Position numbers and translations under genes: made by a program | In this document: positions 312-23,844 of the stretch, piece by piece | Layout: every line of letters starts with the position of its first letter | Numbering within the stretch: the first letter of the stretch is position 1 | Assembly: GCA_015232395.1 (NCBI GenBank) | Contig: JADFZT010000027.1 | Location: 1 to 45,349, forward strand | From: Magnetococcales bacterium | GTDB taxonomy: Bacteria > Pseudomonadota > Magnetococcia > Magnetococcales > JADFZT01 | DNA length: 45,349 nucleotides | Reading direction: 5' to 3' | Notes under the pieces: model-generated | Databases searched by the model: none | What the model was told of the DNA's origin: nothing | Seen by the model: only the letters and a program-made list of their open reading frames with translations

Positions 312-566
312 TTAACCACTCCCCTTGCGCTTGGCGACCAGCTTGGCAATCTGCTCGATGGTGTCCAGCATCTCCAAGGAGACCTCAAAGGTGGGAAGCT
401 TGATTTCAAAGCGGTTTTCCAGATGATTGATCAGTTTCAACACATCCATGGAGTCCAGCAGATCGTTGGAAAAGAGGGGGCCATCCAGGGGATGATCCTC
501 CTCCAGGCCAAACTCATCCGCGAGAATGATCAAAACATCACCTTCAAACCTTTCCGGATTATTCAT
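312..566 (-). CDS. DltC-like acyl carrier protein
   Basis: This is an 84-residue acidic carrier protein. The phosphopantetheine attachment site is Ser39 in LLDSMDVLKL, and the segment after it (LENRFEIKLP, then DTIEQIAKLV) follows the DltC pattern more closely than fatty-acid AcpP, which has DSLD/DSVE around the serine. By family knowledge it carries an activated acyl or aminoacyl thioester in the cytoplasm. Its start overlaps the stop of the flavoprotein gene by 4 nt (ATGA), which suggests translational coupling. The MBOAT, SGNH and DltX-like neighbours indicate that its cargo is passed to an MBOAT acyltransferase. The carried group (D-Ala, other amino acid or acetyl-type acid) cannot be read from sequence because no cognate ligase gene is in the window. 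Confidence 0.85.
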   Translation of the reverse strand: MNNPERFEGDVLIILADEFGLEEDHPLDGPLFSNDLLDSMDVLKLINHLENRFEIKLPTFEVSLEMLDTIEQIAKLVAKRKGSG

Positions 567-2089
567 TCCAGGGCCTCCAATCGTCTGGTTTTTTCAGCTT
601 GTTGGTTTTCACGCTTTTCCCGGGCCAACGCAGTCAGCCGCCCCGACTCCGCATCCATCTGATCCCGTTCAGGGGAGATCACATAACCGATGGGGTTGTA
701 TTGGGTATCGGGCCTTTGGGCCTGGGCGCCAATTCGGGCGATGGTGGTTTGCACGGCGCTTTGGAGAAACAGCTCGAACTGATGGTGGCTGTAATCCATA
801 TTCAGCAGCGCCCCGTTTTGCTCCAAGCCGATGATGGGGTGGTGGAGAATGGCGTGGTGGCGAATCAGGGAGGTGAGCATGCGGATGTGCAGATTTTGGT
901 TGGTGTTGATCTCACTGATCACAAAGGGGGCCACCAGCCGGTCTGAAAGCATATAGTGGCCCCGGCGAATGTAGCGGGTGCGTTCGATAAACCGCTGATA
1001 GACGCTTTTGCCGTGGGCCCGGTCGATGGGGCTGTAGGCCATGAGCAGCACCGCATCGGCTGAAACCAGCCTGGCATGGTGCTGAACAAAAAAATCCTCC
1101 TTGCCACCGATGATACAGGCATACTCTTCTACCGGGGCGTGGTGGGTCGGGCAGAGGTCACAGGCGATACATCGGGCGATCTTTTCTTCTGTGAGATCAA
1201 TCACATCGAAGGCAACGTCCGCATTTTTTGACTGTTCGATATAGCGCTGAACGTACGCCTGCCCCCTTTTATCGGCGCTATCCTGAACGATCCAGATGCC
1301 CACGCGCACCGGCTCCTTCATGCGCCATTTGACCCCCTCACTCAAAGCACCAGCCACCCGTGCCAGACGCTTACCGCTGCCGATGGCGGTGTTGAGGCCG
1401 TAGCTGTCCTTCCACACCGTGCCCACATCCCCCGCTTGCAGGGTGCCGCCATATTGGGCGGTGGTTTCGGCGGAGTTGCCCAGAGCCAGCATGTTGAGGT
1501 TGGATAGATCGATGATCTGATAGATCAGGGAGGTTTCCTGGCCCCCATTGCGCTTGGCCCCGACACTCACCCCGGCATAGACCCGCCCCTGACAGTGACG
1601 TTTGAGATCGGGATCGTGGCGAAGGAGTTCGATAAATTCGTGGAGCAGGGAGGAGCGGTCGCCAAAATAGACCGGGCCTGAAATCAACAAAGCGTCCGCC
1701 GCCAGCACCACCTGCTTGAGTTGATCGATGTTTTTCGGCTCACCGCTCATGGGAAAGTGCGACGCCAGCCCCACATGTCGAATCCGGGCCCCTTCCTGGC
1801 AGGCCCCCCACAACGCCGCAGCCAACCCCGCCTCGGAGTTGGAAAGCCCTTTGTCACCAGGGTTTTTTCGTAAATTACGGTAGATCATGTCGAAGGGGAG
1901 ATTTTCTTTGCGACCAGCTGCGAGAAACGCCTCCACCTGAAAGGCGCTCTGCTCCTTGAGATAGTCCACCAGCGCTTCCTGGCTCTTCAGCTCCTGAATC
2001 TCTTCGACCAGAGCGTCACTGCCCCGTCCGAAACGGGCGTTACGCAGGGAGCCGACAACCCCAAGAATCGTGACATTTTTCCGTGACAT
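563..2089 (-). CDS. Tandem flavodoxin-fold protein with iron-sulfur-flavoprotein-like Cys motif
   Basis: This 508-residue protein appears to contain two flavodoxin-like (NADPH-dependent FMN reductase) domains. The first spans about residues 5-250: an N-terminal beta strand TILGVVGSLR, then SGPVYFGDRSS as the FMN-loop-like segment. The second spans about 265-430, starting at RVGIWIVQDSADKRGQAY. In the second domain C307, C310, C313 and C325 form C-x2-C-x2-C-x11-C, close to the compact cysteine motif of archaeal and bacterial iron-sulfur flavoproteins (usually C-x2-C-x2-C-x4-7-C). The C-terminal 70 residues are basic and charged. It probably binds FMN and perhaps a 4Fe-4S cluster and transfers electrons; substrate unknown. 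It lies between the DltX-like gene and the carrier gene, so it probably belongs to the acylation cluster. A start preceded by AGGA supports ATG at 2089. Confidence 0.75.
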   Translation of the reverse strand: MSRKNVTILGVVGSLRNARFGRGSDALVEEIQELKSQEALVDYLKEQSAFQVEAFLAAGRKENLPFDMIYRNLRKNPGDKGLSNSEAGLAAALWGACQEGARIRHVGLASHFPMSGEPKNIDQLKQVVLAADALLISGPVYFGDRSSLLHEFIELLRHDPDLKRHCQGRVYAGVSVGAKRNGGQETSLIYQIIDLSNLNMLALGNSAETTAQYGGTLQAGDVGTVWKDSYGLNTAIGSGKRLARVAGALSEGVKWRMKEPVRVGIWIVQDSADKRGQAYVQRYIEQSKNADVAFDVIDLTEEKIARCIACDLCPTHHAPVEEYACIIGGKEDFFVQHHARLVSADAVLLMAYSPIDRAHGKSVYQRFIERTRYIRRGHYMLSDRLVAPFVISEINTNQNLHIRMLTSLIRHHAILHHPIIGLEQNGALLNMDYSHHQFELFLQSAVQTTIARIGAQAQRPDTQYNPIGYVISPERDQMDAESGRLTALAREKRENQQAEKTRRLEALE

Positions 2090-2238: not shown

Positions 2239-2361
2239 TCAAAAGGCGGCATAACGAAAGAGTTGCAGATCACTCGCGGCCAGTACAAAAAAATGGATAT
2301 GGACAGCCAACGTCGTGACCATGATCGTCAACCAAAAGATATAATGAACCAGATAGCGCAT
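2239..2361 (-). CDS. DltX-like 40-residue membrane peptide with C-terminal FxYxxF
   Basis: This short gene begins with ATG at 2361, preceded by a strong GAGGA ribosome site with a 6-nt spacer, and stops with TGA at 2239. The product starts MRYLVHYIFW and has one hydrophobic segment of about 25 residues. It ends exactly with LQLFRYAAF. The terminal F-x-Y-x-x-F matches the motif of DltX, the small membrane protein of dlt operons whose Tyr has been proposed to carry the acyl group between the MBOAT protein DltB and the SGNH protein DltD. Here the neighbours are a DltC-like carrier, a DltB-like MBOAT and a DltD-like SGNH protein, which makes chance unlikely. The start lies only 23 bp from the divergent SGNH start, so the two promoters must overlap coding sequence. 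Gene is easily missed because of its size. Confidence 0.8.
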   Translation of the reverse strand: MRYLVHYIFWLTIMVTTLAVHIHFFVLAASDLQLFRYAAF

Positions 2362-2384
2362 GGGTTTTCCTCGTGTGCCACGCC

Positions 2385-3818
2385 ATGTTAACCCGCCTTC
2401 ACGAACGGACACAACGCCTCTTTCCGCTTGGTTTTTTCAAGCCAAGCCTGCCTCCGCTGCTGGCTGCCCTGGCGACGGTTCTGGGGGGGATTCTCCTGCT
2501 GCCCCATGTCGCCCTTCCCTTTATCACCACCTATGCCGAACGCACGGATGATCACCTGCGCAGCGCCTGGCATGTGGAGAGGCTGGTGCATCGCTTCAAA
2601 CCCCGGGGAGAGGCCAACGTCATCATACTGGGGGGCTCCCAGGTGATGCAGGGATTTCCATCCTCCGAAAGGATGGCTGAGATCTATCAACAGCGCTACC
2701 GGGAGCAAGTAAGGTTTTTGGAGGTGGGCTACAGCTTTCAGAGTATCGCCTCCTACTTGCAAATTTTGACTTATCTCGATATCAACGAAAACAGCGTGGT
2801 CTTTCTACACACCGCTCCCTCCAAATTTTCCACCCAGGGGCTCAACACCGACTGCCACGTCACCCGCCACCCGACCCTTTATAGCGACGACTATTTTGCG
2901 CTGACCGGGGAAAGTTTTGACCTCGCCTGCCGATTCCGAAAATATTCCCAGCTGCTCTACCGCTTTCACGATGCGGTACGGATTTTTGCCCGCCGGCAAC
3001 TGCTGCAGTGGCAGGGCAAACCCCTCCCCCCGGCGATTCGGTTTGATAAATTTGGCGGTGAAAAAGCCTACCTCGCCGATCCGATCCAATGGGTCCGCAA
3101 CAAGATCAGCCTCAACCTGGAACAGGAAGCCCAGGCAAAAGCAGAGCCAGAAGCCCCCCGCCCCCCCGATTTCAACCAAAATAAACGCAACCTGCTGGAA
3201 GACAAGACGAAAAACGTTTTTCCAGCGGCCAAGAAGAACCAAGAGACCAAAACAGCTCATGGGGAGCCCGCCAAAAAACCCTCCCCGGCTGAAATAAGGG
3301 AGGAAGCCGCCCAACGGGCCATCCGGCTTTTCCAAACCGCCATCGACTATCTGCGCTCCAAAGGGGCTCGGGTGGTGCTCTTCACCATGCCCTACAATCC
3401 CGGCTTTCCCAACGGCATGCCCGGCTACCACCCCTCCAGCCACCAAAACCATCCCCGGATTTCCCAATGGCTGACCCACCGGCTGCCGAAAAAAAGCCTG
3501 GCTGCGGATATCGGCTTCAATGTGGACAAAAAAACCCGCAACCCCGGATTGAGTCAGCTGTTTTTGGATCGAGTGGCACAACTCCCAGCCCCCTTTCACC
3601 CCTTCCAGGTGGAGAGCCTCACCGCCTCGGATTTTTATGACTCCTCCCACATGATCCGCTCCGGACGGGAAAAGTTCATGCCCGATTTTATGGAGGTGGT
3701 GAAGAGGGAAATAGCTGCCCGAACCGGATCGACTGACAACGGGGCAATAAACGGGAGAGCACCCCCCAAGCCCCCAAGCCAGATCAAAGATGAGACCCCT
3801 CAGGGAGCACCTCCATGA
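2385..3818 (+). CDS. DltD-like membrane-anchored SGNH-family protein
   Basis: This protein of about 477 residues has one N-terminal membrane segment (roughly residues 17-45, PPLLAALATVLGGILLLPHV) followed by an extracytoplasmic domain. LGGSQVMQGF places a nucleophile-like Ser85 after a beta strand. DFYDSSHMIRSG near the end supplies D419 and H422 in the D-x-x-H arrangement of SGNH hydrolases and DltD. In between, residues about 250-310 are Lys/Pro/Glu-rich and probably disordered. By analogy it would take the acyl group from the MBOAT side and place it on an envelope polymer. The stop overlaps the MBOAT start by 4 nt. ATG 2385 was preferred to GTG 2373; neither has a clear ribosome site. The acceptor polymer is unknown. 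Confidence 0.75.
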   Translation: MLTRLHERTQRLFPLGFFKPSLPPLLAALATVLGGILLLPHVALPFITTYAERTDDHLRSAWHVERLVHRFKPRGEANVIILGGSQVMQGFPSSERMAEIYQQRYREQVRFLEVGYSFQSIASYLQILTYLDINENSVVFLHTAPSKFSTQGLNTDCHVTRHPTLYSDDYFALTGESFDLACRFRKYSQLLYRFHDAVRIFARRQLLQWQGKPLPPAIRFDKFGGEKAYLADPIQWVRNKISLNLEQEAQAKAEPEAPRPPDFNQNKRNLLEDKTKNVFPAAKKNQETKTAHGEPAKKPSPAEIREEAAQRAIRLFQTAIDYLRSKGARVVLFTMPYNPGFPNGMPGYHPSSHQNHPRISQWLTHRLPKKSLAADIGFNVDKKTRNPGLSQLFLDRVAQLPAPFHPFQVESLTASDFYDSSHMIRSGREKFMPDFMEVVKREIAARTGSTDNGAINGRAPPKPPSQIKDETPQGAPP

Positions 3819-5482
3819 GGGGCAGCACCATCAACTGGAAGGCCTACGCCATCACGGTGGTGTCGGTGTTGCTGGTTCTGGCCATTCTGCTGGGGCAGAG
3901 CCCAAGCGATGTGGTGACCCTTTCCCATCCTGTGCCTGCCGCCTTTGAACTGGATCGAAAGGGAAGTAGGACAAGCGCCTTTATCAACCATCAGGTTTTC
4001 CCCAAGCTCGCCCTCTCCCTGGAACTCAAAGGCCAAGCCCAGGTGACGGTAGGGCAGAAAAAATTTCAGCTGGGCCCCACCTCCCCCCTCTGCAAACCCG
4101 CCGAGGCCGGATTCCACGCCTGCCGTATGGTGGTCAAAACCTCTACCAAAGAGTCCCCCCTCCTGTTTAGCTCCAATAAGGGCGCCTCGATCCAATATTT
4201 TCAGTGGACCCTGGTCAAATTCAAGCGCCAATCCACCCTTTCAGGCACCCTCTTTGAGCCTGGAGCCATGGGTTGGCTGGCGGGAGGGATGGGGGGATTG
4301 CTGCTCTTCGTTCTGCTGGCCCATCAGAGCCCCGGCCTCTCCCAATGGGGGCTGATCGGGGCAGCGGTGCTCTTTCTGTATTTGAATGACGGGATCTTTA
4401 CCGGAATTTTGCTGGTTTATCTCCTGGCGCTCTATCTTTTACGCCACCAGGTGAACGATGGCCGTGGCGGGCTTGGGCGACTCTTTGTGCTGGTTGTCTC
4501 CGCGATCGCTTTTCTGCTGCTCTTTAAATATGGCAAGGCAGGCATCTATGGGGTGTTTGCCGATCCGGGGGGATTCAATCTCCTCATGCCGGTGGGGATT
4601 TCCTATTTCATCATCCGTCTGGTGGACACCCTGCTGCGTTGGTTTCGCGGACAAAATCGCGAGGTCACCCTGCGGGAATTTTTTTGTTTCATCCTCTTCC
4701 CCGGCACCCTGGTGGCAGGCCCGGTGGAAAATATTCGGGATTTTTATCAAAAACGGCTCACCAAAATCACCGCCGACGACTATGCCTACGGCCTGTCCCG
4801 CATCTTTTTGGGCCTGTTCAAAAAAGTGGTGATCGCCGACGCCTTTCTCTACAAGGTGATGGCTGGGGGGAGTTTCATGTCCTGGATGTGGGGGGATAAA
4901 ACCCACAATCTGGTCAATCATCTGATCTTTGACCCCCAAGGGGCCTCCCTGGATAAAATCGCCGCCTTTGCCCTGGTGGGGCTGCTCTTTGCCTACATTG
5001 ATTTTTCCAGCTATTCGGATATGGCCATCGGTTTTTCCCGCTTGCTGGGATTCCGGATTCGGGAAAACTTTAACTGGCCCATTTTGGCCGCCAACCTCCG
5101 GGACTACTGGAAGAGATGGCACATTTCCCTCTCCGACTGGGCCTTCCAAAACATTTTTTTCCCTCTGATGATTCAAATTCGCAGCCCCTACCCGCCCCTT
5201 TTCGTCACCATGCTGACCATCGGCCTGTGGCACGCCTTCAACCTTTCCTGGTTTTCCTGGGCCATTCACCACGGCATCGGCATGACCCTGGTCGCCTGGC
5301 TGCAAAAGCATTTAAAAACCCCCAAAGCCGTGCTGTTTTGGCTGAGGCCCGTCAGAACCGCCCTCACCCTTCAGTTCGCTTCCATGGGCTTTTTGTTCGT
5401 TTATTTCAACGACTATGCCATCGCCGCCACCCTCTACAGCCGCTATTGGCTGGGAATTTTTGAGCTGCTGACGCCATTTTAA
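3815..5482 (+). CDS. MBOAT-family O-acyltransferase (DltB/AlgI-like) with an added N-terminal domain
   Basis: This 555-residue polytopic protein carries the MBOAT core. RDYWKRWHISLSDW (His436) and TIGLWHAFNLSW with the invariant His473 are the family signatures, and FILFPGTLVAGPVENI and FSSYSDMAIGFSRLLGF are typical DltB/AlgI segments. The family moves acyl groups across the membrane from a thioester donor. Unusual is the N-terminus: a membrane helix (about 11-30) followed by about 115 residues of beta-rich soluble sequence with two cysteines (about residues 32-145) before the next membrane helix, whereas DltB normally begins directly with the helical core. The start sits in ATGA with the SGNH stop and has GGGAG upstream, indicating an operon with the SGNH gene. 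The donor is probably the DltC-like protein at 312-566. Confidence 0.9.
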   Translation: MRGSTINWKAYAITVVSVLLVLAILLGQSPSDVVTLSHPVPAAFELDRKGSRTSAFINHQVFPKLALSLELKGQAQVTVGQKKFQLGPTSPLCKPAEAGFHACRMVVKTSTKESPLLFSSNKGASIQYFQWTLVKFKRQSTLSGTLFEPGAMGWLAGGMGGLLLFVLLAHQSPGLSQWGLIGAAVLFLYLNDGIFTGILLVYLLALYLLRHQVNDGRGGLGRLFVLVVSAIAFLLLFKYGKAGIYGVFADPGGFNLLMPVGISYFIIRLVDTLLRWFRGQNREVTLREFFCFILFPGTLVAGPVENIRDFYQKRLTKITADDYAYGLSRIFLGLFKKVVIADAFLYKVMAGGSFMSWMWGDKTHNLVNHLIFDPQGASLDKIAAFALVGLLFAYIDFSSYSDMAIGFSRLLGFRIRENFNWPILAANLRDYWKRWHISLSDWAFQNIFFPLMIQIRSPYPPLFVTMLTIGLWHAFNLSWFSWAIHHGIGMTLVAWLQKHLKTPKAVLFWLRPVRTALTLQFASMGFLFVYFNDYAIAATLYSRYWLGIFELLTPF

Positions 5483-7189: not shown

Positions 7190-7314
7190 CCCCTGACCTC
7201 CAATGAGCTAAAGTATAAAGTGATCGAAATGCGGGTTAGCCGGATCGATCCTGATCCCGACACGGTCAGCCATGGGCCGGGTCAGAAAGGTATCGCCAAG
7301 ATGGCCTGTTTTAA

Positions 7315-7478
7315 CCTAAATCCGGCAGTTGGGCGTGTGTGGCTGGTGCACAATATTGGTTCGCATAGTGAATTGGGAGAAATCGCTGTCACCTGATTGG
7401 TCACAAGACTTTCTCCCGATTTGCTTGGTGGATCAAGAGGCTGGGGGCATGTACGTACGCCCAACTGCCGGATTTAGG
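7315..7478. mobile_element. 164-bp MITE-like element, copy 1
   Basis: The termini are perfect inverted repeats: CCTAAATCCGGCAGTTGGG at the left and its reverse complement at the right, extending to 22 bp inward. The element is flanked by TTTAA at 7310-7314 and again at 7479-7483, a 5-bp target duplication. A second copy of the same 164-bp length lies at 23872-24035 with a different duplication (TTCAA). It encodes nothing. Its right end lies 7 bp from the first possible start of the hybrid kinase gene, so insertion replaced the native upstream region of that gene. The mobilising transposase is not in the window. Confidence 0.85.
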
Positions 7479-7489
7479 TTTAACCAAGG

Positions 7490-10400
7490 ATGGACGACAT
7501 CATGACCACTCCTGACACGACGCAAGGGGATCATCCAGGTCAGAGCGGGGATCGATCTGCGACCCCGGAGGGATTCCCTCTGGTTCGAATTGCCTGGTTG
7601 GCGATCGCTTACGCCCTGATCGGCAAGGCAAGCCTGGAATTGGCCATTCCACCGGGCTATGCGACGGCGATTTTCCCCCCTTCGGGACTCGCTTTGGCAG
7701 CTCTCTTGATCTGGGGGTGGCGATGCTGGCCCGGGGTGTTTTTGGGCTCCACCCTTTTGAATCTCTGGGTAGCGCTCTCCGGGGGAGGCACTCTCACCGG
7801 GATGGGAACCCTGGTCGCCATGGGAATTGCCATGGGCTCCTCCCTACAGGCCTTGGTCTCCGCCTATCTGGTCAGGCGCTTTGTCGGCTTTCCCACCCCC
7901 CTGGCCCATGAAAAACAGATCATCCGTTTTATTTTCCTCTCAGGCCCTCTCAGCTGCCTCATAGCCGCGACCGTTGGTGCGGGGGTTCTCTGGGGCTCTG
8001 GTACGGTGCCCACGGCCCATCTTTTCTCCACCTGGTGGACCTGGTGGGTGGGAGATACCTTGGGCATCATTTTGATCACGGTGTTGATCTTCTGTTTCGT
8101 TGCGGAACCGAAACGTATCTGGCGAAGTCGCCGGGTATCGGTGGCGGTACCGTTATTGGTCCTGATGACCCTGGTGACCACCCTGTTTTTTCGAGTCAGT
8201 GACTGGGAAAACACCCGTATCCGGCTGACCTTTGAAAATCAGGCTGATCACCTGGCCTACAACCTGGAAGTCATCTTTCGAGGTTATCTGCAATCCATTC
8301 AATCCATCGAACGTTTTTACGCCAGCTCCACCCATGTCGATCCCGAGGAGTTCCGTGTTTTCACCAGTGACACCTTTAAAATGTTTCCGGGCATCCAGGC
8401 GCTGGAGTGGATCCCCCGGGTACGGGATGAGGATCGCCTGGCTTTTGAGAAAAAGGCCTCCAGTGAAGGGTTTCCAGGATTCCAAATCCGGGAGCAACAA
8501 GCCCAGGGGGTGATGGTGCCAGCCCTGAAACGGGAGGAATATTTTCCGGTCCATTATGTTGAACCTCTCCCTGGCAATGAAAAGGCGGTGGGTTTCGACA
8601 TCGCCTCCAATCCCACCCGTAAAGCGGCCCTTGATTTGGCTAGGGACAGTGGTCAAATGGTCGCCAGCGGTCGTATCACCCTGGTTCAGGAAAATCAGAA
8701 AAAGCATGGATTTCTGGTTTTTCAGCCCATCTACACCGGAGAAAGCCCCCCCCAGAGCATCGATCAACGCCGAAAACAGTTGCATGGGTTTGCCCTGGGC
8801 GTTTTCCGTATTGAGGATATGATGCGCTCGGCTCTGGAAGAACTGGTGCGAGAGGATATTCAGATCCGCTTCCTGGACAAAAGTGCTCCGGCTGCGTCCC
8901 AAGACCTGCTCCATGAGGTCGGTTTTGAGGAGCCGGTGGCCTTTGACGGTTTTTCATTTGACCATCCTTTTGACATGGCCGGTCGCCAGTGGGTGCTGCA
9001 ATTTTCCATTGATCAGCGTTACACCTCCCGCATGAGTAGTGACTACCCCTGGTTGGTGATGACAGGGGGGCTGGTGGTGAGTGGCTTGTTTGGCATTTTT
9101 CTACTGATATTGACAGGCCGCACCTCCCGCATCGCAGAGCTGGTTCAAGAGCGCACCGCCCAGCTGAAAGACAGTGAATCCCGCACCACCGCGATTGTAC
9201 AGTCGGCGGTTGACTGTATCATCACCATCGATGAATTCGGCCTCATCGAATCGGTCAATCTCGCAGTCTGTCGGCTTTTTGGCTATACCGAAAAAGAGAT
9301 GATCGGCCAAAACATCAAGATGCTCATGCCCTCCCCCCACCACGAAAATCACGATCTCTACCTGCAACGCTACCGGGAATCCGGCCAAGCACGGATTGTG
9401 GGCTTGTCCCGGGAAGTGGAAGGACTGGCAGCAGACGGCACGCTGATTCCCCTGGAACTGTCGGTCAGCGATATCAAGCTGGCCCAACGGCGTATTTTTA
9501 CCGGCATTCTCCACGACCTGACGGAACGCAAAAAAGCCGACAAGCTAAAGAGTGAATTTGTCTCCACCGTCAGCCACGAACTACGCACCCCCCTCACCTC
9601 CATCCAAGGCTCCCTGGGGCTGATCAAGGGCGGGGTGGGGGGAGAGCTGCCCAGCAAGGTCACCACCCTGGTGGAAGTCGCCCACCGCAACTGTGATCGT
9701 CTGGTACGGCTCATCAACGATATTCTCGATCTGGAAAAGATCGAAGCGGGGAAGATGACCTTCAAACTGGAGGTACTGGCGCTCTCTCCCCTGATCCACC
9801 ACGCCCTGGAGTCCAACCAGGCCTATGGGGACAAACACGGTGTCAGCCTCACTCTCCAGGAAGATCTCACTGATGCTCAGGTCAGCGTGGATGAGGATCG
9901 ATTGGCCCAGGTGATGGCCAATCTGCTTTCCAACGCCGTCAAGTTTTCCCCCAAAGGGGCCTCGGTGGACATTGCCATCCATCGGGAGGGAGGCTGGGTC
10001 AAGGTCAGTGTACGGGACTACGGTGAAGGGGTTCCGGAAGCATTTCAGGACAAACTATTCCAAAAATTCAGTCAGGCGGATGCGGGTAATACCCGCAAAA
10101 CCGGTGGGACGGGTTTGGGGCTTTCCATCAGCAAGGTGATCGTCGAACGCATGGGGGGGAACATTGGTTTTGATACCGAACCTGGTCGTGGCACCACCTT
10201 TTATTTTTCGCTGCCGGAATTTTGCCCCCCCCCTTCCTCCGGCTCCCACCTCTCCAAACCTCTCACCCACCCCCTGGCACGGGTGTTGATCTGTGAAGAT
10301 GAACCGGATATTGCCCGGACGTTGGGCATGATGCTGGCCAACGACGGCTATGAAACCGACATCGCCATGAGCGCTGCCCAGGCCCGGGAGCTGCTGGGGA

Positions 10401-11549: not shown

Positions 11550-11791
11550 TATAGCAGTTCTACCTCAAAATTGGACACTCTTTCCTGACTCGTCATCCCC
11601 GCGAACGCGGGGATCCAGGGAGCTGATAATGACCCTCAAGGAAAAACCAAATCTTCAAGAAAGACCTGTGTTTGGCTGAAAGTGATACAAAATTTGGAAA
11701 GGTTCGTGCCAGACACTCTGGATTCCCGCATTCGCGGGAATGACAGCAAAAGTGCAACGGCATATGTCCAGTTCTTGATTCGAATGCTATA
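11550..11791. mobile_element. REP-doublet mobile-element-like repeat, copy B (complete)
   Basis: This is a complete 242-bp copy. The ends read TATAGCAGTTC...AATTGGACA at the left and the imperfect reverse complement (TGTCCAGTTCTTGATT...GCTATA) at the right. Both ends show TA at the outermost position, compatible with insertion at TA. A REP-like palindrome at 11592-11618 and a second, in inverted orientation, near 11719-11745 enclose a region with no ORF of merit. It is about 80-90% alike to copies A and C by eye. Confidence 0.8.
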
Positions 11792-12333
11792 TCTCTGAAA
11801 TCATGCAAAACCTCACCGCACACCCCACCCTGGACTTCAATCACGAACCACAAAGGGGTGATCCAAACCTGCCAGGATCACTTGTTCAAGTGCTTTCGGT
11901 GTAACAAAACAAAGCCCGGGAATACCCATTGATTTCCTGAACTTTTCAACCCGGTTGATCTGGATGCCGTCAGAAAAATGCCCCGACCTCCCTGGGATGG
12001 CTTCATTTTCCGCATTCCCTCTCCATCTGCCACCTCCAACACCCTGTCAGGCCAATGGAGTTCCCTGTTTAATCGACAAAACTCCCCGTTTGATCGGTAG
12101 AGAATGACGGGCAATCGTGACTGTAAAATTCAATCTACTGAACATCATTCATGTAAAGAGATATCGAGAAGTGACCGTTGAAAATGAGTGCCGTTGGACG
12201 TATATTTCTGTTGACGAAATGTTTACTTATGCGCTGGCAATGTGCACCCTGAAGGGTGACCATTGATCCGACGTGGATGGATGGATTCATAACCTGCTCA
12301 CCCAGGCTACGAAAGAACCACTGGCGGCCTCCG
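11792..12333. other. Intergenic region upstream of cheA; no convincing gene
   Basis: This 540-bp stretch has no frame with good start signals. A leftward frame at 11878-12114 would need a TTG start and shows no domain, so it is not called. GTGATCC / GGATCAC form a small inverted repeat near 11855-11880. CACCCT / AGGGTG form a tight hairpin near 12245-12258, covering the GTG that would extend cheA upstream. The A/T-rich part at 12120-12240 probably holds the cheA promoter, but I cannot identify -35 and -10 boxes with confidence. Confidence 0.5.
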
Positions 12334-23373: not shown

Positions 23374-23844
23374 TCACCCTTGGCGCTTAAGGGCCTGGAT
23401 GGTGTTTTCCAGGGTGTTGAGGAAGCGGGAGCGATCTTTTTTGCCGAAGCTGGGATTATAGCCTGAAATTTCTCCCGTATCTCTGAGATGGGCGTTGAGA
23501 TCGCGCATGGCGAGCCCCATACCGATGGAATCTTCGTCAAAGGGCTTTCCCCCGGGACCGATCACCTTGGCCCCTTGCTCCAAACAGCGGGCGGCAAGGG
23601 GGATATCTGCCGTGATGGCGATATCCCGGGATCCGACCCGCTCGGCAATCCAGTCATCAGCCTTGTCGAGCCCCCCCTCCACCACAATCCCCTGCACCTT
23701 GGGAATGCTGGGCAGGCGCATCCACTGATTGCTCACCAGAATGACCACCAGTTGATGGCGCTGGGCGACCCGAACAATCTCCTCTTTCACGGGGCAGGCG
23801 TCCCCATCCACATAAATCTTGATCTCCTGAGCCATATTGATCAT
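23374..23844 (-). CDS. YaiI/YqxD family protein (UPF0178)
   Basis: About 156 residues from ATG 23844 (ATG 23835 also possible). Family signatures are IYVDGDACPVKEEI near the start, VSNQW, ITADIPLAARCLEQGA and a C-terminal RSRFLNTLENTIQAL. The family has a PIN/NYN-like nuclease fold but no settled function. The frame continues upstream another 65 codons, but that part is simply the 164-bp mobile element read through, so the longer start is rejected. Convergent with cheD. Confidence 0.85.
   Translation of the reverse strand: MINMAQEIKIYVDGDACPVKEEIVRVAQRHQLVVILVSNQWMRLPSIPKVQGIVVEGGLDKADDWIAERVGSRDIAITADIPLAARCLEQGAKVIGPGGKPFDEDSIGMGLAMRDLNAHLRDTGEISGYNPSFGKKDRSRFLNTLENTIQALKRQG

Follow-up and report, generated by a model that had tools for sequence, protein, structure and literature searches.

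A probable DltX-like acyl-shuttle microprotein adjoins an MBOAT acyltransferase without a shuttle motif in a Magnetococcales genome

The window analyzed here, a stretch of 45,349 nucleotides, comprises positions 1–45349 of contig C27 from a Magnetococcales genome of 4.94 Mb that is 99% complete. The genes and features at the locus are as follows.

312–566, minus strand: acyl carrier protein (ACP), with the phosphopantetheine site LDSMD (Pfam PP-binding, E 4e-6)
563–2089, minus strand: FMN-reductase-like protein, NADPH-dependent, 508 aa (Pfam FMN_red, E 2.6e-15, residues 94–205)
2239–2361, minus strand: DltX-like microprotein gene, 40 aa, one transmembrane helix, C-terminal FRYAAF (Tyr37)
2368–2372, minus strand: GAGGA ribosome-binding site, 6 nt upstream of the microprotein ATG
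2373–3818, plus strand: SGNH protein, putatively DltD-like, with an N-terminal transmembrane segment; start GTG at 2373 or ATG at 2385
3815–5482, plus strand: MBOAT acyltransferase (P0003), DltB-like (Pfam MBOAT, E 1.5e-10)

The first-pass annotation had proposed a 40-residue gene at 2239–2361 without giving a strand, and we found the open frame at exactly these coordinates, on the minus strand. The features claimed for this gene were also borne out: the GAGGA site precedes the ATG, and the product (P0002, MRYLVHYIFWLTIMVTTLAVHIHFFVLAASDLQLFRYAAF, with a stop after residue 40) has one hydrophobic stretch at residues 11–29 (Kyte–Doolittle maximum 1.97), which is the sole predicted helix and is followed by an 11-residue tail that ends in FRYAAF and places the motif tyrosine 8 residues beyond the helix end. 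The position of the gene had been misjudged, however. Rather than lying between the SGNH and MBOAT genes, which overlap on the plus strand, the small gene diverges from that pair, and 11 nt separate its ATG from the earliest start available to the SGNH gene; no consensus promoter was found in this 11-nt gap. On the 3′ side of the microprotein gene and on the same strand are the FMN-reductase-like gene (2089–563) and then the ACP gene (566–312). The contig ends ~310 bases past the ACP gene, and additional genes may therefore lie there. In the FMN-reductase-like protein, the first half holds the FMN_red domain, whereas the second half has no assigned domain but contains a cysteine cluster, RCIACDLCP; one further genome of the order encodes a full-length relative (42% identity), which is accompanied there by other polysaccharide-type genes.

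The window contains 543 frames that are 25 aa or longer, and of these only the microprotein ends in FxYxxF. The chance expectation for frames of 30–100 aa with this ending, determined from 60 windows simulated with a trinucleotide-Markov model, was 0.033 per window, with a maximum of 1. A direct sequence search of 61 genomes with the 40-aa protein returned itself and chance matches only, and a PDB search with P0002 returned aquaporin-helix matches only, at an E-value of 0.8, which we took as chance.

In the Dlt pathway, the tyrosine of the terminal FxYxxF motif of DltX accepts D-alanine from DltB and passes it to DltD (PMC12148441). In PatA, the same hexapeptide forms the C-terminus of the acyltransferase, where two extra helices carry it; the motif tyrosine becomes acetylated, and its replacement by phenylalanine eliminates labelling (PMC12148441). 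The DltX of Bacillus thuringiensis has 48 residues and ends in TFIYNEF, and Firmicute DltX proteins conserve a leucine 22 residues before the tyrosine (positions 23 and 45 in B. thuringiensis; PMC5541007). The window protein shares with DltX its length class, a single helix, a terminal FxYxxF and encoding by a separate gene, as well as its context of a motif-less partner MBOAT, a putatively DltD-like SGNH protein and a carrier protein nearby. Compared to the ~50 residues, one transmembrane helix and short tail of DltX, it has 40 residues, one helix and an 11-residue tail, in a predicted orientation, and Tyr37 of FRYAAF occupies the place of the invariant tyrosine. It differs in ending with FRY rather than FIY, in having Val15 at the position equivalent to the helix leucine, and in giving no match to Pfam DltX (PF12459) at an E-value of 1; no protein of the whole genome matched at an E-value of 10, and the relatives' microproteins are likewise unmatched by this profile, which gave no hit above its cut-off in the genomes of the relatives either. 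The locus differs from Firmicute dlt operons in its divergent gene order, the lack of a linked dltA, the inserted FMN-reductase gene and the host. Thus, the earlier description of the product as DltX-like holds for its anatomy and proposed role, whereas the protein is not a recognizable member of Pfam DltX.

The MBOAT at the locus ends ..YWLGIFELLTPF (..WLGIFELLTPF), without FxYxxF, and its alignment stops before the two extra C-terminal helices on which PatA- and AlgI-type MBOATs bear the hexapeptide, so that it does not belong to the PatA type. PatA/PatB and AlgI-type pairs share with the window system the logic of an MBOAT, an SGNH protein and an acyl-tyrosine hexapeptide, but they carry this hexapeptide fused to the MBOAT and use acetyl-CoA as donor (PMC12148441), whereas in the window it is encoded by a separate gene. 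The other three MBOATs in the genome all end in FIYFQF and so follow the usual design of envelope MBOATs, in which two additional C-terminal helices bear FxYxxF; thus, the MBOAT that lacks a shuttle motif is the one adjoining a shuttle-like microprotein. His436 and His473 are invariant in the MBOAT alignment, and the best PDB match of its AlphaFold model (pLDDT 73, with most of the core above 90) is DltB (6bug, E 3.3e-12). The alignment, the side of the tree described below and this fold match characterize the protein, at the level of sequence and model, as a predicted DltB-type MBOAT without a shuttle motif of its own. We rejected the NCBIfam DltB profile as a discriminator because a cis-type MBOAT matches it equally well. 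The window MBOAT also has ~150 extra N-terminal residues (3815–4260) that are absent in relatives and comprise a helix plus a region modeled with low confidence. Pfam gave no match for the SGNH protein, but it contains the catalytic blocks, namely a GGS block (Ser89) and a DxxH block (Asp423, His426), and residues G87, S89, D423 and H426 are invariant in its alignment to SGNH proteins from related loci. The ten best PDB matches of its low-confidence model (pLDDT 58) are all DltD, although these matches are weak (first E 5e-4).

For a comparative test, we collected MBOATs from 61 genomes and one scan of GTDB representatives, which gave 108 related MBOATs, and scored each for a C-terminal motif of its own (in cis) and for a separate frame of 25–110 aa ending strictly in FxYxxF within 5 kb (in trans). 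Such a frame was present near 24 of 39 motif-less MBOATs compared to 1 of 69 motif-bearing ones (Fisher p 8e-13, uncorrected for relatedness). The 15 motif-less exceptions mostly reflect cut contigs, a copy just past the distance limit, or near-motifs (FRYANI, FRYGDI, FNYMGW, FAYMAL, FIYREM, PVYQGY). In a tree of the 108 MBOATs, the change between cis and trans occurs once, on one branch with an SH-aLRT support of 98, or 97 when the C-terminal columns were removed and only core columns were used. Solved DltB (6bug, aligned part) falls on the trans side, and the window MBOAT groups with a clade associated with ACP and ligase genes (SH-aLRT 90); finer placement is unsure because the window MBOAT and DltB form long branches. 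By alignment, the microproteins stand in for exactly the C-terminal motif present in the cis MBOATs. The tyrosine is kept in 29 of 29 collected microproteins, partly by selection, as the search required it. The relatives' small genes are under protein-level selection, with pN/pS values of 0.29 in Thermoleophilia and 0.41 in Opitutae plus a cyanobacterium; these values come from the relatives because the window gene has no alignable sequence relative. Loss of the small frame or its motif in relatives that keep the MBOAT and SGNH genes had been named beforehand as evidence against the gene, and such relatives instead retain small frames with a terminal tyrosine in the same order (L006 and L043), Pseudohalioglobus, Bdellovibrionales, Thermoleophilia, Planctomycetota, Bacteroidota, Opitutae and a cyanobacterium. 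These sequence comparisons yield a rule that holds across phyla: where an MBOAT has no FxYxxF of its own, a separate small gene supplies the motif.

The gene sets around these split systems vary. At the locus of the window MBOAT's nearest relative within its order (L043/L006, L043 being a Magnetococcales assembly), genes for an SGNH protein, a 47-aa peptide ending in FRYAGF and an MBOAT are adjacent, in a cluster of ACP, PLP decarboxylase, sulfotransferase, AMP ligase, SGNH, microprotein and MBOAT genes. The order in Pseudohalioglobus (L053, P. lutimaris, with the microprotein gene at 7769–7912 and the ending FKYQGF) is SGNH, microprotein, MBOAT, PLP decarboxylase and AMP ligase, and the Bdellovibrionales microprotein (L097) ends in FRYEGF. 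Thermoleophilia loci have ACP, microprotein (FRYVGF) and AMP ligase genes followed by SGNH and MBOAT genes, with overlapping genes in L051. Compact Dlt-like operons of Thermoleophilia/Actinobacteria (L041, L042, L044, L046, L047, L048, L050 and L051), some with two SGNH-like genes, had no description that we could find in the open-access literature searched. The PLP-dependent decarboxylase genes that cluster with an AMP ligase gene in two split loci (L053, 9423–10673; L043, 2965–4221) hint that the transferred group might be a modified amino acid; the L053 decarboxylase matches NCBIfam dCO2ase_PEP1 and lysA, both below cut-off. Opitutae loci are arranged as MBOAT, SGNH and microprotein, mostly without a ligase or carrier gene, and microproteins ending in FIYVAF accompany MBOAT and SGNH genes in polysaccharide-type clusters of Opitutae and one cyanobacterium where carrier and ligase genes are not present (L073, L074, L080, L085, L089, L094, L095, L099, L107 and L116). 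These FIYVAF systems are apparently split shuttles without a carrier donor. In the sampled non-Firmicute loci, FRY and FKY endings accompany ligase genes, and most loci with FIYVAF have no ligase. We treat the contrast between FRY and FIY only as a correlation among these loci and reject it as a general marker of a carrier, because B. thuringiensis DltX has FIY yet has a carrier. A weak match of one relative's peptide to the viral domain ‘Salyut’ was taken as chance.

The window ACP provides the locus with a carrier protein. It scored 36 bits against the NCBIfam DltC profile PRK05087, below the profile cut-off, and is 34–46% identical to ACPs adjoining microprotein genes in the Thermoleophilia and Bdellovibrionales loci; it is probably the donor carrier, in the role of DltC. 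An adenylation enzyme (DltA) is absent from the window cluster. Elsewhere in this genome, contig C61 encodes a candidate AMP ligase that shares 39% identity with the ligase of L067 and 36.5% with that of L051; at an E-value of 1e-60 it is present in 1 of 48 genomes of the order, namely this one. This result, from a single genome, fits a dispersed pathway.

Taken together, these results make it very probable that the small gene encodes a divergent DltX-like acyl-shuttle microprotein in a carrier-protein-fed Dlt-like system. This reading builds on the observed gene with its helix and motif, on the tendency of such genes to accompany MBOATs lacking the motif, on the fold shared with DltB and on the catalytic blocks in the SGNH protein; the acyl-tyrosine chemistry would follow by analogy with DltX and PatA (PMC12148441), and carrier use is suggested by the adjacent ACP and the tree neighborhood. 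An acyl or aminoacyl group would be loaded onto the neighboring ACP. The loading enzyme would probably be a DltA-like AMP ligase whose gene lies at another place in the genome, for which the C61 enzyme is the candidate. The DltB-like MBOAT would then carry the group through the inner membrane to Tyr37 in FRYAAF, and the microprotein tail would swing into the catalytic center (Ser89/Asp423/His426) of the DltD-like SGNH protein, which would esterify a putative acceptor, an envelope polymer. We count against the shuttle reading the divergent layout with only 11 nt and no consensus promoter separating the start codons, the missing Pfam DltX match, the low confidence of the SGNH model, the FMN-reductase-like gene, which has no place in the proposed route, the lack of linkage between the candidate ligase and the window cluster, and the restriction of the 40-aa protein's detectable likeness to the motif.

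An acyl-CoA donor is the alternative that we regard as unlikely but credible. The microprotein would be a true subunit of the MBOAT–SGNH complex, the group transferred would be acetyl or another simple acyl, and the ACP and FMN-reductase genes would belong to another pathway. The Opitutae and cyanobacterial FIYVAF loci without a ligase or carrier nearby fit this model, as a split shuttle therefore seems not to need a carrier, and the ligase of this genome is unlinked. The grouping of the window MBOAT with the ACP/ligase-associated clade argues against it, however, as do the ACP gene on the microprotein strand, two genes downstream, and the company that FRY and FKY endings keep with ligase loci in the non-Firmicute sample.

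It is highly improbable that the frame arose by chance or encodes a leader peptide, with a coincidental FxYxxF end. The gene is short, the exact protein occurs in one genome only, and its third-codon G+C of 0.54, although computed from only 41 codons, lies below the 0.66–0.71 of its neighbors. Against coincidence, an ending expected only 0.033 times per 45-kb window is found beside the genome's one motif-less MBOAT, the nearest relative keeps its FRYAGF microprotein beside SGNH and MBOAT genes, and separate frames track motif-less MBOATs (24/39 versus 1/69). We also give very little credence to a structural or regulatory single-helix subunit with an unacylated tyrosine. This model draws on the fact that the acyl-tyrosine step here rests on analogy, but the tyrosine is present in every collected microprotein (in part by search design), these proteins replace exactly the motif that cis MBOATs carry, and the PatA tyrosine is both acetylated and needed for labelling (PMC12148441).

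More broadly, we lean toward the view that split acyl-tyrosine shuttles make up a broadly distributed lineage of acyltransferases of the envelope in at least eight phyla, with Firmicute Dlt as one branch, some members being carrier-fed, as here, with an aminoacyl group other than D-alanine, and others being carrier-free. If true, this view would overturn a published rule under which MBOAT–SGNH pathways outside Dlt have neither a DltX-like microprotein nor a carrier protein (PMC12148441). DltX in Gram-negative bacteria is not new in itself, because dlt operons of Dickeya and Pectobacterium were mentioned in 2017 as encoding a DltX of the same topology without sequence similarity to Firmicute DltX (PMC5541007). 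Those cases are dlt operons, whereas the window holds a dispersed magnetococcal cluster with similar split systems in further phyla. Within the open-access literature searched, which excludes subscription papers and preprints, both the magnetococcal variant with its dispersed gene set and the wider split-shuttle rule across phyla appear to be new. The motif-less-MBOAT rule allows overlooked small genes to be found systematically, each with a testable catalytic tyrosine, and suggests that Gram-negative and actinobacterial lineages contain unrecognized systems that acylate or aminoacylate the envelope.

Elsewhere in the window, matching translated stretches revealed two kinds of dispersed repeat, one at 1–180 and about 11593–11853 and the other at 7282–7505 and about 23374–23560; the repeat translations contain HSRECGNP... 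and ...PPSKSGESLVTNQVTAISPNSLCEP....
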